Below are positions 865-13,637 of a stretch of DNA of 29,443 nucleotides, one piece after another. The DNA comes from a virus, in the IMG/VR virus record IMGVR_UViG_3300034102_000077, positions 1 to 29,443 of that record. The stretch is one strand, 5' to 3'. The notes beneath the pieces are model-generated. The model had not been told where the DNA came from. It searched no databases and saw nothing but the letters and a program-made list of their open reading frames with translations. A program made the translations under genes and the position numbers. Numbering within the stretch: the first letter of the stretch is position 1; every line of letters starts with the position of its first letter.

Positions 865-1559
865 GCATTAAATTAATGAGCGCCGTGTGGGAGCGCGATG
901 ATCTCACATCAACCCAAAAACTTGTTCTATTAGCTTTGGCTGATTGGGCCAATGATGAAGGGCTCTGCTGGCCTTCGATAGATAGGGTTGCTCTTAAGGC
1001 ATCTCTGACAAGCAGGGGTGTGCAAAAAACAATCCGCTCTCTTGAAGAAATGCAGTTTCTTCGCAAAGAAGAAATAAAAGGCAGGGGAAATAAATACTGG
1101 GTTTCTATGCCCACGAACGAGGTTCACCCCCGAACAACGTTCACCCCACCCGTGTCACAGGTTCACCCCTCCCCTGAACCACGTTCACCCAATACATCAT
1201 ATACACATCAATTAACCACCAAGTATATAATAGAGGGGTATCCAGTCTGGTTGCCGATAGAGGCTTGGCAGGGTTGGGTGGAGATGCGGAATCAACGCAA
1301 GCGCCCATTAACAGATCGAGCGAAGGATAGGGCTTACAAGAAGCTGGAAGCCCTGCACTTGGCAGGACACGACATAAACGAATTGCTAGATCGTTCGACA
1401 ATCAACGGCTGGCTCGATATATATGAACCGAAAGGCGCGACCAATGCAGGAAATAGCAAACACGCAGCAGAACCAACCAACCCAATGGTCAGAGCAGTCA
1501 TTGCCAGCCAAGCTCGACGAGCTGCTGATGGGGAGCGACCTACCGACGATTGGGCCTAA
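861..1559 (+). CDS. Lambda O-like replication initiator with N-terminal winged HTH
   Basis: 232 residues. Residues 1-80 (MSIKLMSAVWERDDLTSTQK, then LADWANDEGLCWPSIDRVA) match the helix-turn-helix_36-type domain common at the start of phage replication initiators. It is followed by a Pro/Thr/Ser-rich linker (about 88-125) encoded by the iteron region, and a C-terminal helical domain (about 128-190, WLPIEAWQGWVEMRNQRKRP onward) of the kind found in phage O-like proteins. By analogy with lambda O, the N-terminal domain should bind the iterons in its own gene while the C-terminal part contacts the loader encoded next. Translation probably depends on the upstream leader ORF, because no Shine-Dalgarno sequence precedes the ATG, which sits in a hairpin. 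The next gene overlaps its 3' end. Initiator role confident; details inferred. Confidence 0.8.
   Translation: MSIKLMSAVWERDDLTSTQKLVLLALADWANDEGLCWPSIDRVALKASLTSRGVQKTIRSLEEMQFLRKEEIKGRGNKYWVSMPTNEVHPRTTFTPPVSQVHPSPEPRSPNTSYTHQLTTKYIIEGYPVWLPIEAWQGWVEMRNQRKRPLTDRAKDRAYKKLEALHLAGHDINELLDRSTINGWLDIYEPKGATNAGNSKHAAEPTNPMVRAVIASQARRAADGERPTDDWA
1115..1236 (+). repeat. Predicted replication origin: four iterons plus AT-rich stretch within the initiator gene
   Basis: Four direct repeats GTTCACCC begin at 1122, 1139, 1161 and 1183 (spacings 17, 22, 22). Extended left they read GAAC-N3-GTTCACCC at 1115, 1132 and 1176, with a degenerate GTCA-N3 version at 1154, so three units have an internal dyad (GAAC/GTTC). 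Immediately after, 1191-1236 is strongly AT-rich (AATACATCATATACACATCA and on to TATATAATAG). Iterons with internal symmetry followed by an AT-rich unwinding region, inside the initiator gene's linker, is the arrangement of the lambda origin. The repeats are seen directly; the origin role follows from that analogy. Confidence 0.75.
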
Positions 1560-1968
1560 GTCTGCGGAGACCCTTCAACAGTTTGTGGACGCGCCAAGAC
1601 CACCAATGCCAGACCGCGAACAGGTCGAGGTTATGATCGCGAAGCTATCGTTGGCCACCGCCAGCCAGAAGCGCAGTCAGGAAGAAGAAGCAGAGCGCCT
1701 GGAGCTTTATTGGCTGACGCTGCGGATCTATCCCTTGGTCGATCTGCGAAGCGCGTTCATTAAACTGCTACGCACTTGCAAGTTCATGCCAACGCCAGCG
1801 GAAATAGATTCGGTGGTTCAGAATGAAGGCTATGATCGCAGACGCAGGATAAATCGCGCCAAGCACCTTTTGATGATTCACTATCGGGATTACACGCCGC
1901 CCCAGGAATACGTTACGGCAGAGGAGCTGGCAGAGCTACGGAGCAATCTACAAATTGGCCAAGGATAA
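1444..1968 (+). CDS. Probable helicase loader-like (lambda P/G39P-like position) protein
   Basis: 174 residues from ATG 1444, which has AAAGG about 8 bases upstream. ATG 1423 and ATG 1528 are alternatives in the same frame; 1528 would cut the overlap with the initiator gene from 116 to 32 bases. The centre holds an acidic helix (QEEEAERLELYW) and a stretch reading YPLVDLRSAFIKLLRTCKFM followed by PTPAEI. This resembles the small helical N-terminal domain of G39P/DnaI-type loaders, where a helix pair ends in F-x-P-T-x-A-E-I. Its place directly after the O-like initiator supports loading the host replicative helicase at the origin. No P-loop is visible, so it is not an AAA+ DnaC-type loader. 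Family call moderate. Confidence 0.6.
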   Translation: MQEIANTQQNQPTQWSEQSLPAKLDELLMGSDLPTIGPKSAETLQQFVDAPRPPMPDREQVEVMIAKLSLATASQKRSQEEEAERLELYWLTLRIYPLVDLRSAFIKLLRTCKFMPTPAEIDSVVQNEGYDRRRRINRAKHLLMIHYRDYTPPQEYVTAEELAELRSNLQIGQG

Positions 1969-3189: not shown

Positions 3190-3424
3190 TTCACACCAGG
3201 TTGGTGGAGATCACTACGCATCAAAGACGGTTCAACCTTGGCAAGCCATGGAATCTTGGATGTCGCCAGAAGCTTTTTCAGGTTATTTGCAAGGTAATTG
3301 CATAAAGTATTTATCACGCTATCGTGAGAAGAACGGTATTGAGGATTTGAAGAAGGCGCAGCACTATTTATCTAAGCTGTGCAAGCATGAAAGTGAGAGA
3401 AATGACAAACGCACCAAAGATTGA
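3176..3424 (+). CDS. DUF3310 family protein
   Basis: 82 residues from ATG 3176, chosen because GAGGA lies just upstream and the DUF3310 sequence begins here; an earlier in-frame ATG at 3143 would add unlike residues. Key pattern: HQVGGDHYASKTVQPW, then FSGYLQGNCIKYLSRYREK, then GIEDLKKAQHYLSKL. This is the hallmark of DUF3310 (SaV-like), a small nucleotide-kinase-associated phage domain of unknown activity. It is sometimes fused to, or next to, nucleotide metabolism and DNA-modification genes, and here a DNA methyltransferase pair follows. Confidence 0.85.
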   Translation: MDNINSHQVGGDHYASKTVQPWQAMESWMSPEAFSGYLQGNCIKYLSRYREKNGIEDLKKAQHYLSKLCKHESERNDKRTKD

Positions 3425-3917
3425 ACAACGCAGTGTAGCTAAATTAGTTCCATACGCAGCTAACAGCCGAACGCATACCGATACGCAGATTGCGCAGATA
3501 GCTGCAAGTATTAAAGAATTTGGATGGACTAATCCTATCTTAATTGATGGTAAAGATACTATTATTGCAGGGCATGCAAGGACACTAGCTGCACAAAAGC
3601 TAGGGATAAAAGATGTTCCTGTAATCGTTCTTGATTATTTAAGCGAGGCCCAGCAACGTGCATTAGTTATAGCTGATAACCAACTGGCGGTTAATGCTGG
3701 CTGGGACTATGAAATATTAGCTATTGAACTAGGGGAAATAAAAGACCTTGGATTTGACATAGACTTAATTGGCTTTAGCGCAGGAGAAATTGCAAAATTA
3801 ACCTTCGAAGAAAAGGATTTATATCCTGATTCAAGCGCGAAAGAAATTAACCCAGATGATTACAACATGGGACATCAATGCCCAAAATGTGGATTTGAGT
3901 TTAACGATGATAAATAA
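3402..3917 (+). CDS. ParB-like domain protein with C-terminal zinc ribbon
   Basis: 171 residues from ATG 3402; ATG 3387 is an alternative. The N-terminal half is a ParB/sulfiredoxin-like domain: a V-x-K-L-VPYAANSRTHTDTQI opening, IKEFGWTNPILIDG, then the IIAGHARTLAAQKLG motif and VPVIVLDYLSE. The C-terminus carries CPKCGFEFN, half of a zinc-ribbon. In many phages the same ParB-like module is fused in one chain to a DNA methyltransferase and ends with a similar CPxCG tail. Here it is a separate gene whose stop overlaps the start of a C5 methyltransferase by 11 bases, so it probably acts with that enzyme, for example in target recognition. Function inferred. Confidence 0.8.
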   Translation: MTNAPKIEQRSVAKLVPYAANSRTHTDTQIAQIAASIKEFGWTNPILIDGKDTIIAGHARTLAAQKLGIKDVPVIVLDYLSEAQQRALVIADNQLAVNAGWDYEILAIELGEIKDLGFDIDLIGFSAGEIAKLTFEEKDLYPDSSAKEINPDDYNMGHQCPKCGFEFNDDK

Positions 3918-4977
3918 ACCAGATTGCGCATGGAATTTAGCAGACCTAAATTTAATTCCAAAAAATGGAATAAAGGTAATGAGCACATTTGCTTGTGGAG
4001 GTGGCTCGAGCATGGGATATAAACGTGCTGGATGTGAGGTTATTGCAGCTAATGACATCGATCCAGAAATGGCGTGGCATTATAAGCTAAACATTAATCC
4101 AAAATATTATTTTCTTTGCCCTATTGGCGAATTGCTAGAAATGGAATTACCAGAAGAACTTTATAACTTAGACATTCTTGATGGTTCCCCACCTTGCTCA
4201 ACCTTTAGTATGGCCGGCAGCCGAGAAAAAGCATGGGGTAAAGAAAAGCACTTTAGAGAGGGACAGGCAAAGCAAGTCCTGTCTGATCTATTTTTTGATT
4301 ATCTTGATTTAGTAGGAAAGCTAAAACCAAAGGTAGCTATTGCTGAAAATGTTAAGGGAATGCTAATTGGAAACGCTAAGGGCTATACTAAGAAGGTAAT
4401 GGAGCGATTTAAGGAGTTAGGTTATCGTCCACAATTGTTCCTTCTAAATGGCGCCGATTGTGGTGTCCCACAAAGGCGTGAACGAGTTTTCTTTGTAGCA
4501 ATCCGCAATGACATTCAAAGTCAGCCATTAAAGCTAGCGCCAAAACATAGGTGGATAAGCTCAGGAGAAGCTACGCAGGATTTAAAGCGCCTTACTGTTG
4601 AAGAGATTAAAGATACAAAATCAACAGGTATTGATTTAAAAGCATGGAGCAAAACTCCAGAAGGAGGATGTTATGCAGATTATTTTAAAAAGTACGAAGG
4701 CAGAAACAATGCTTTTTCGCATCAAAAAATTAGCAGCAAGAAACCTTCCTGTACACTAACCGCAACATTTGATAATTTTACTCATTGGAATGAGTGCAGA
4801 AAACTAACTTTCCGCGAATGGAAGCGTCTTGGAAGTTTCCCAGATGATTATCAAGCTAAAACAGATAAAATTGGAAAGTATATGATTGGCATGAGTGTAC
4901 CTCCTAAAATGACTGAACAAGTTGCTCGTGCAGTATGCGAGCAATGGTTAGGTGTAAAACCAACAGAAGCTATTTAA
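3907..4977 (+). CDS. DNA (cytosine-5) methyltransferase
   Basis: 356 residues from ATG 3907 (an earlier ATG at 3856 lies inside the ParB-like gene). All core motifs are present: motif I FACGGGSSMGYKRAG (SAM binding), motif IV DGSPPCSTFS with catalytic Cys97, motif VI ENV at about 147-149, motif VIII QRRERVFFVA starting near 189, then a target-recognition stretch, motif IX RKLTFREWKRLGSFPDDY and motif X KIGKYMIGMSVPP. It should transfer a methyl group from S-adenosylmethionine to C5 of cytosine in phage DNA, most likely to evade host restriction. No cognate restriction gene is nearby. The gene is visibly richer in AAA, TTA and AAT codons than the terminase gene, which suggests separate acquisition. 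The target site is unknown. Confidence 0.93.
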   Translation: MINKPDCAWNLADLNLIPKNGIKVMSTFACGGGSSMGYKRAGCEVIAANDIDPEMAWHYKLNINPKYYFLCPIGELLEMELPEELYNLDILDGSPPCSTFSMAGSREKAWGKEKHFREGQAKQVLSDLFFDYLDLVGKLKPKVAIAENVKGMLIGNAKGYTKKVMERFKELGYRPQLFLLNGADCGVPQRRERVFFVAIRNDIQSQPLKLAPKHRWISSGEATQDLKRLTVEEIKDTKSTGIDLKAWSKTPEGGCYADYFKKYEGRNNAFSHQKISSKKPSCTLTATFDNFTHWNECRKLTFREWKRLGSFPDDYQAKTDKIGKYMIGMSVPPKMTEQVARAVCEQWLGVKPTEAI

Positions 4978-13334: not shown

Positions 13335-13637
13335 ATGGATGATATTAGAACATTTGCACCAGCTTACGGACAAGGCATTTCCGTAACTCCTGGCGTTGCT
13401 AGTGCGAACTCCGTTCTTGGTAAGAACGTGACATCTCTGTGCATCACCAGCCGCAATTCAGTTGAGTGCTTTGTGCGCGTTGGCACTGGCGCTGGTCTAG
13501 CTGCAACGACTGCTGACTATCTGGTTCCGCCAAACGGTCAGGTAAGCATTAGCAAATTCTTGGATTATGATCGGATCGCATACATCGCCCCTGCTGGCGG
13601 TGGTTCGCTCCACATTCTTCCTGGCGAGGGCTTCTAA
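13335..13637 (+). CDS. Small beta-rich structural protein
   Basis: 100 residues with the run GVASANSVLGKNVTSLCITS followed by FVRVGTGAGLAATTADYLVP, a beta-sandwich-like pattern also common in small phage virion proteins (N-x-V-x2-F-VRVG-x-G-x2-AT-x-D-x-LVPP). It ends in SLHILPGEGF. AAGGAA precedes the ATG. A decoration or head-tail joining role is plausible from position. Its stop overlaps the next tiny gene (TAATG). Confidence 0.65.
   Translation: MDDIRTFAPAYGQGISVTPGVASANSVLGKNVTSLCITSRNSVECFVRVGTGAGLAATTADYLVPPNGQVSISKFLDYDRIAYIAPAGGGSLHILPGEGF

Follow-up and report, generated by a model that had tools for sequence, protein, structure and literature searches.

A stretch of viral DNA at positions 861-1968 very likely contains the replication origin of the phage inside the gene for its own initiator, and very likely works by the mechanism proposed here. 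The DNA analysed is the whole of the 29,443-nt IMG/VR record IMGVR_UViG_3300034102_000077 (hereafter the window), which is probably a fragment of the viral genome. Sequence comparison lends the origin reading good support, whereas experimental support is lacking, there being no binding or replication data. In the proposed mechanism, dimers of an HTH_36 winged-helix initiator would bind the four dyad iterons located in the linker-coding part of its own gene; the start of the recognition helix (Arg52 and residues 53, 55 and 56) would read the half-site GTTCACC, with Lys56 setting the specificity class; the array would load several initiator dimers, and the resulting strain would open the adjoining AT-rich phased element (1191-1236), whereupon the C-terminal domain and the P-like product of gene 1423-1968 would recruit the host DnaB helicase.

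The initiator and its P-like neighbour

Judged by sequence, the initiator belongs to HTH_36 and is neither a lambda O nor a RepA_N protein. Its residues 15-66 match the HTH_36 profile of Pfam (PF13730) with 36.4 bits against a gathering cut-off of 25, and its PHROG match is 'replication initiation O-like' (E 3e-27). Neither Phage_rep_O (PF04492) nor RepA_N (pfam06970) was among the Pfam families matched at E up to 0.1, and a profile of the DNA-binding domain gave no match to lambda O (E 0.2) or phi80 gp15 (E 0.05). The protein is divided into an HTH_36 winged helix (residues 1-84), a linker (approximately 85-122) and a C-terminal helical domain (123-232, helical from 133 on in the AlphaFold model), with helices at 40-47 and 51-63 and a two-stranded wing at 67-81 predicted within the winged helix. 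Compared with the N-terminal domain of pSK41-type RepA, the model scores Z 8.7 (4pql_B) and Z 8.6 (4pt7_B), values equalled by many unrelated winged helices; Foldseek alone returned no match at E up to 0.001 for either the initiator model or that of its neighbour. The linker, which the first-pass annotation had described as low-complexity, is indeed predicted to be disordered over most of residues 87-122 (pLDDT <50 at 87-96, 100-105 and 107-122), and it is this segment, between the DNA-binding and C-terminal domains, that encodes the iterons (Table 1).

The two genes resemble the O and P pair in layout and predicted fold, because the best structural match of the AlphaFold model of the 1423-1968 product (pLDDT 84) is lambda P in its complex with DnaB (9oa1_Y, Z 10.0 and 1.7 A over 72 residues), ahead of SPP1 G39P (1no1_A, Z 7.3). 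The fold predicted to be common to these helicase loaders is not accompanied by recognizable sequence similarity: no Pfam family, Phage_lambda_P included, matched the product at E up to 0.1, and phmmer found no match to lambda P (E 0.32) or phi80 P.

Table 1. Features of the proposed origin and adjoining genes (positions in the window)
Feature	Position	Strand	Basis
O-like replication initiator gene, 232 aa	861..1559	+	HTH_36 match, PHROG match, AlphaFold model
Codons of predicted recognition helix (residues 51-63)	1011..1049	+	AlphaFold helix; residues 52, 53, 55 and 56 at helix start covary with iterons
Iteron 1, CGAAC-GAG-GTTCACCC	1114..1129	+	read from sequence
Iteron 2, CGAAC-AAC-GTTCACCC	1131..1146	+	read from sequence
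Iteron 3, imperfect left arm, TGTCA-CAG-GTTCACCC (TGTCA 1153-1157)	1153..1168	+	read from sequence
Iteron 4, TGAAC-CAC-GTTCACCC	1175..1190	+	read from sequence
AT-rich stretch, proposed unwinding region	1191..1236	.	71.7% AT
Three degenerate second-element units, 11 bp apart: ATACATCA 1192-1199, ACACATCA 1203-1210, AACCACCA 1214-1221	1192..1221	+	2, 2 and 1 mismatches to AACC[AG]T[CA]A; comparison with family motif
P-like gene, predicted DnaB helicase loader	1423..1968	+	AlphaFold model; overlaps end of initiator gene in another frame

The iteron array and the AT-rich stretch

The sequence GTTCACCC starts exactly at 1122, 1139, 1161 and 1183, where four iterons had been placed by the first-pass annotation, with start-to-start spacings of 17, 22 and 22. 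Both strands of the whole window together hold 6 copies against 0.65 expected, a number reached in 0 of 100 shuffles. The dyad extension GAAC-N3-GTTC, claimed for three of the four copies, is present at 1115, 1132 and 1176, and the left arm of the copy at 1161 is imperfect. This left arm, TGTCA (within 1153-1160), corresponds to the half-site core of the Arg56 class described below and is possibly the relic of a change of class.

Comparison with shuffled sequences reveals a constraint at the level of the DNA, as had been supposed, rather than of the linker protein. Given their spacing, the iterons are translated in different frames of the gene (0, 2, 0 and 1), as the peptides VHP, TFTP, VHP and RSP, and an 8-mer of any kind present in four copies arose in 0 of 5000 synonymous-codon shuffles of the gene and in 1 of 5000 resamplings by the codon usage of the window. 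One might regard the repeats as arising merely from a linker peptide that is repetitive and rich in proline, without any function in the DNA, and the low complexity and disorder of the linker would suit that; yet three frames and different peptides are involved, synonymous shuffling abolishes the repeats and, among relatives, the class of the DNA site follows the recognition helix and not the peptide, so that this explanation is barely conceivable.

The stretch at 1191-1236 is 71.7% AT, compared with 50% for the gene and 53% for the window, and is at least as AT-rich as 99.2% of the 46-base stretches of the window. The AT-rich run reported earlier is thus real, yet a more fitting description is a phased series of degenerate copies of a second motif (see below), and the earlier finding as a whole is right and somewhat richer than stated. 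GC skew rises steadily across the window without a turn and is uninformative as to the origin, the record probably being a fragment.

Iteron classes and exchange of modules among relatives

The relatives compared were the best 80 of 90 from a scan of viral contigs which, together with the window, provided 76 full genes, 63 of them distinct. The N-terminal domain of the window type is present in 41 of the 63, and these, counted by eye, fall into three classes of recognition helix with their own iterons: VQK with GTTCACC (14 genes), VQR/IQR with TGTCACC (10) and KKRAVQ(L/I) with ATGCACC (17). The three classes of iteron occupy the same position in genes whose domains are nearly the same and whose recognition helices differ to match. 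In the alignment of homologues, which had been proposed as a check, the array is fixed in place over all 41 distinct genes while the residues of the linker drift, varying with the class (VHP/TTFTP, CHP/HSVTP and MHP/TKDIP). The 17/22/22 spacing is that of the GTTCACC and TGTCACC classes, and in the ATGCACC class the second site is degenerate.

Exchange of modules is likewise evident from the comparison. The C-terminal domain of the window, with the P-like partner, also follows N-terminal domains of three other kinds (in 16, 3 and 3 distinct genes); the window-type N-terminal domain is combined with this C-terminal domain and the partner in 19 distinct genes and with the C-terminal domain but without the partner in 17 more, and in 5 genes the window-type domain and its array are joined to other C-terminal domains. 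The array travels with the N-terminal domain, the point of exchange being inside the AT-rich stretch or immediately beyond it. Since both sit in one gene, reader and site are exchangeable as a single cassette.

Two further observations concern this set. Three unrelated N-terminal domains preceding the same C-terminal domain (L051, L057, L054 and L068) have linker repeats of their own, for instance TTGCCC, AACCCAGTGGGTT and GGAACAGTCCC. In addition, two initiator genes of different N-terminal type (L013 and L056) are located on one viral contig of 68,853 bases, which may represent two prophages or a joined assembly.

Covariation of the recognition helix with the iterons

As the protein and its site lie on one stretch of DNA, each sequenced relative amounts to one paired observation of helix and target, made without an experiment. 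A set of 427 loci from viral contigs, GTDB genomes and named phages, many of them overlapping, yielded 399 ORFs with the domain, 249 of them distinct. Linker sites were identified by a de novo search for repeated dyads with a spacer of 3, for which shuffling of codon order puts the 95% level at a score of 5; this score was reached by 220 of the 249 genes (29 were dropped), and removal of near-duplicates left 111. Genes with short linkers (10 of 157 distinct genes) were left out.

Residues 55 and 56 of the helix track particular bases of the half-site across the 111 genes. The half-site is GTTCA in 12 of the 13 genes with Gln55-Lys56, whereas G occupies position 2 in all 20 genes with Gln55-Arg56 (TGTCA in 12, TGGCA in 3, TGCCA in 2, CGCCA in 2 and TGACA in 1) and C occupies position 5 in all 13 with Arg55. 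The remaining Gln55 genes (n=58) have mostly ATGCA, CTGCA, CTTCA/G and CTGCG half-sites, and in 7 of the 111 residue 55 is neither Gln nor Arg. The pairing of Arg with G fits the ordinary chemistry of amino acid-base contacts.

The associations were tested in three ways. When each gene was contrasted with the gene most similar to it outside the helix but carrying another residue at the position concerned (pairs share no rows and may share branches), the association of Arg56 with G2 went the same way in 22 of 24 contrasts, that of Lys56 with GTTCA in 12 of 13 and that of Arg55 with C5 in 13 of 13, with none opposite in any of the three and no difference in the remaining 2 and 1. A partial Mantel test of helix against iteron, controlled for the remainder of the domain, gave r 0.32, a value reached in 0 of 2000 permutations, as against r 0.10 for that remainder when the helix was controlled for. 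The third test, on a tree built without the helix columns, was poorly resolved (68 columns, 46 of 76 inner branches open): the starred independent pairs, 2 for Lys56, 3 for Arg56 and 1 for Arg55, included none opposite and were not significant. Among the 84 columns of the domain, those best associated with half-site positions p1, p2, p4 and p5 are 53, 56, 52 and 55, respectively, all of them in the recognition helix; for p3, column 48 leads, with 24, 3 and 46 close behind, and the helix residues offer no clear explanation. The covariation is observed, whereas binding by the helix is inferred from it.

It is also conceivable that the sites belong to a regulator of the host. The LexA-type SOS box of Gram-positive bacteria, GAAC-N4-GTTC, has similar half-sites, and LexA is itself a winged-helix protein with a weak match to the domain profile (3k2z, E 0.011). 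We nevertheless regard such an assignment as very improbable, given that the spacer in the window's array is 3 and not 4, that arrays consist mostly of 3 to 7 sites, and that the half-site shifts to TGTCA, ATGCA, CTTCA or ATGCC together with the initiator's own recognition helix.

A further helix class, AVI/AVM followed by D or E (e.g. GRTAVIDA; L474, L482, L481 and L454), goes with CGGAC-type dyads at a 17/22 spacing, and the code may accordingly extend to further specificities.

Held-out test of the code

With the rules fixed beforehand, 62 loci from new genomes of four groups were set aside; their 65 ORFs, from which 13 already seen and 3 with short linkers were dropped, included 48 new distinct ones, with many domains less than 50% identical to any earlier domain. 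The first, fixed finder scored 32 genes, and its outcome was weak: Arg56-G2 held for 3 of 8 (converse 21 of 24), Arg55-C5 for 6 of 9, Gln55-A/G for 7 of 8 and Lys56-GTTCA for 0 of 1 (converse 31 of 31). Inspection of the linkers revealed degenerate arrays that the finder had mis-registered and many helices that are not of the VQ/VR type.

A finder anchored on the CC that follows the half-site was designed after these failures had been seen, and its results are therefore post hoc. On the training genes (99 of the 111 scored), it gave Arg56-G2 in 19 of 19 (converse 80 of 80), Arg55-C5 in 13 of 13, Gln55-A/G in 82 of 86 and Lys56-GTTCA in 12 of 13. On the held-out genes, 25 with non-canonical helices were left out and 8 of the 23 canonical ones had fewer than 2 sites; the 15 scored gave Arg56-G2 in 5 of 5 (converse 10 of 10), Arg55-C5 in 2 of 6 (three of the misses being near-identical), Gln55-A/G in 7 of 9 and Lys56-GTTCA in 0 of 1 (L485, which has GTGCA). 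On these results, we take Arg56-G2 as the firm rule, Lys56 as one that holds near the window, and Arg55-C5 as not general.

A phased second element after the iterons

In most relatives, the last iteron is followed on the coding strand by AACC[AG]T[CA]A, repeating every 10-12 bp. Exact copies in 74 clusters number 109, compared with 9.8 in synonymous shuffles (maximum 16 in 200 shuffles), and at least one is present in 49 of the 74; the reversed motif has 2 copies in the same clusters and the minus strand 0. With one mismatch allowed, 74 successive pairs are spaced 10, 11 or 12 bp, and 48 of 53 multi-copy genes carry the element in more than one frame. The 46 held-out clusters contain 48 copies against 6.5 expected (shuffle maximum 13), with at least one in 19 of 46, and all 16 multi-copy genes use more than one frame. 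None was found in 6 Phage_rep_O loci or in 1 DUF1376 locus, the latter control being limited by the presence of that gene in only 1 of 148 genomes.

On the evidence of this motif, the AT-rich stretch of the window is a degenerate copy of the family-wide element. We propose that the element is an unwinding or loading region, its reader being unidentified. In phages mEp013 (L497) and ZF40 (L498) and Vibrio phage D67 (L093), the element is one base longer, AACCAGTCA.

The principal competing explanation is autorepression, with the iterons serving the initiator as operators for silencing its own gene and the origin lying elsewhere on the phage. Dyad sites bound by a winged helix would look identical in that case, and another origin cannot be excluded, since the record may be a fragment. 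However, the array is fixed and begins some way into the gene (250-330 bp), away from the promoter; the only other occurrences of GAAC-N3-GTTC in the window, at 13406 and 13852, lack CACC; most relatives have the phased element next to the array; and the O-P gene pair is present. Autorepression is thus unlikely, and an origin within the initiator gene remains the preferred reading, with opening of the DNA, loading of the helicase and origin activity inferred.

With only slightly more confidence than doubt, we suggest a broader interpretation, whereby these genes amount to a library of initiators, natural and self-labelled, from which the specificity of a winged-helix family can be deduced for individual residues (G2 is read by Arg56, GTTCA is set by Lys56 and C5 often goes with Arg55). 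On the same interpretation, the iterons are followed by a class-independent element, AACC[AG]T[CA]A, which recurs about once per helical turn; as it is conserved across DNA-binding specificities, C-terminal domains and host phyla, its reader would be something general, either the initiator bound to the single strand after opening or a conserved replication factor of the host. The tracking of G2 by Arg56 across relatives is a testable reading of how initiators choose their targets. How origin specificity changes, and how replicons escape incompatibility, are old questions that could be addressed from sequence and then at the bench. A position is likewise predicted for many origins not annotated so far, carried by Pseudomonas, Sphingomonas, Burkholderiales and Xanthomonadales prophages, among others. 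Should the phased element prove real, it is a candidate for a signal of general use in unwinding or loading, different from the one in lambda. Literature searches, confined to the listed part of the open-licence papers matched, found no account of the recognition code or of the second element.

Comparison with known systems

By analogy, the case of the window appears to work like the lambda, pSK41/pPR9 and PLE systems, each of which shares a part of its arrangement. The lambda origin lies within the O gene and comprises four dyad iterons and an AT-rich stretch (PMC5043065, in the part available; NC_001416 annotation). Likewise, the window has four dyad iterons in the middle of an initiator gene, an AT-rich stretch beside them and an overlapping downstream partner with the predicted fold of P. 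The first-pass annotation had matched the region to the lambda origin, and as a layout the match stands (winged helix, iterons in the linker, AT-rich stretch, C-terminal domain and P-fold neighbour); it does not extend to the family, which is not lambda O, the window's initiator having a DNA-binding domain of another family without a match to Phage_rep_O. Moreover, iteron spacing is 17/22/22 in the window and 20/24/23 in lambda, and the lambda-O-family loci (n=6) lack the phased AACC[AG]T[CA]A element of the window's relatives. Lambda-O-family genes (L500, L503, L504 and, from lambda itself, L095) share an AT-rich sequence of the ACAAAAGA type after their own dyads, unlike the AACC element.

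In pSK41-type plasmids, the origin lies inside the rep gene. The initiator of plasmid pPR9, a hybrid with an N-terminal domain of pfam13730 (= HTH_36) and with its origin region in rep, is functional and supports replication, according to the accessible part of the published account (PMC5703833). The same part describes, as in the window's relatives, an origin in the rep coding region and an N-terminal domain that is swapped together with it on a constant C-terminal domain (PMC5703833). By contrast, pSK41 uses RepA_N and binds the DnaG primase (PMC5703833, same portion). In our comparison, the pPR9 initiator differs from that of the window in having a helix other than the VQ type, and the long repeats over the linker of its rep gene (L432) belong to a different sequence type and are not accompanied by the AACC element.

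For RepA of the Vibrio satellite PLE, the part of the source available to us reports that the DNA-binding domain, on a conserved C-terminal domain, covaries with the iterons, as in the present case, and that cognate pairs are required for replication; the PLE origin is, by contrast, intergenic, with iterons of approximately 30 bp (PMC8263062).

Elsewhere in the window, the description of the virion module as P22-like is borne out by a match of the portal protein to P22_portal (E 6e-156), and at 3387-4977 a ParB-like gene overlaps a gene for a cytosine-5 DNA methyltransferase.
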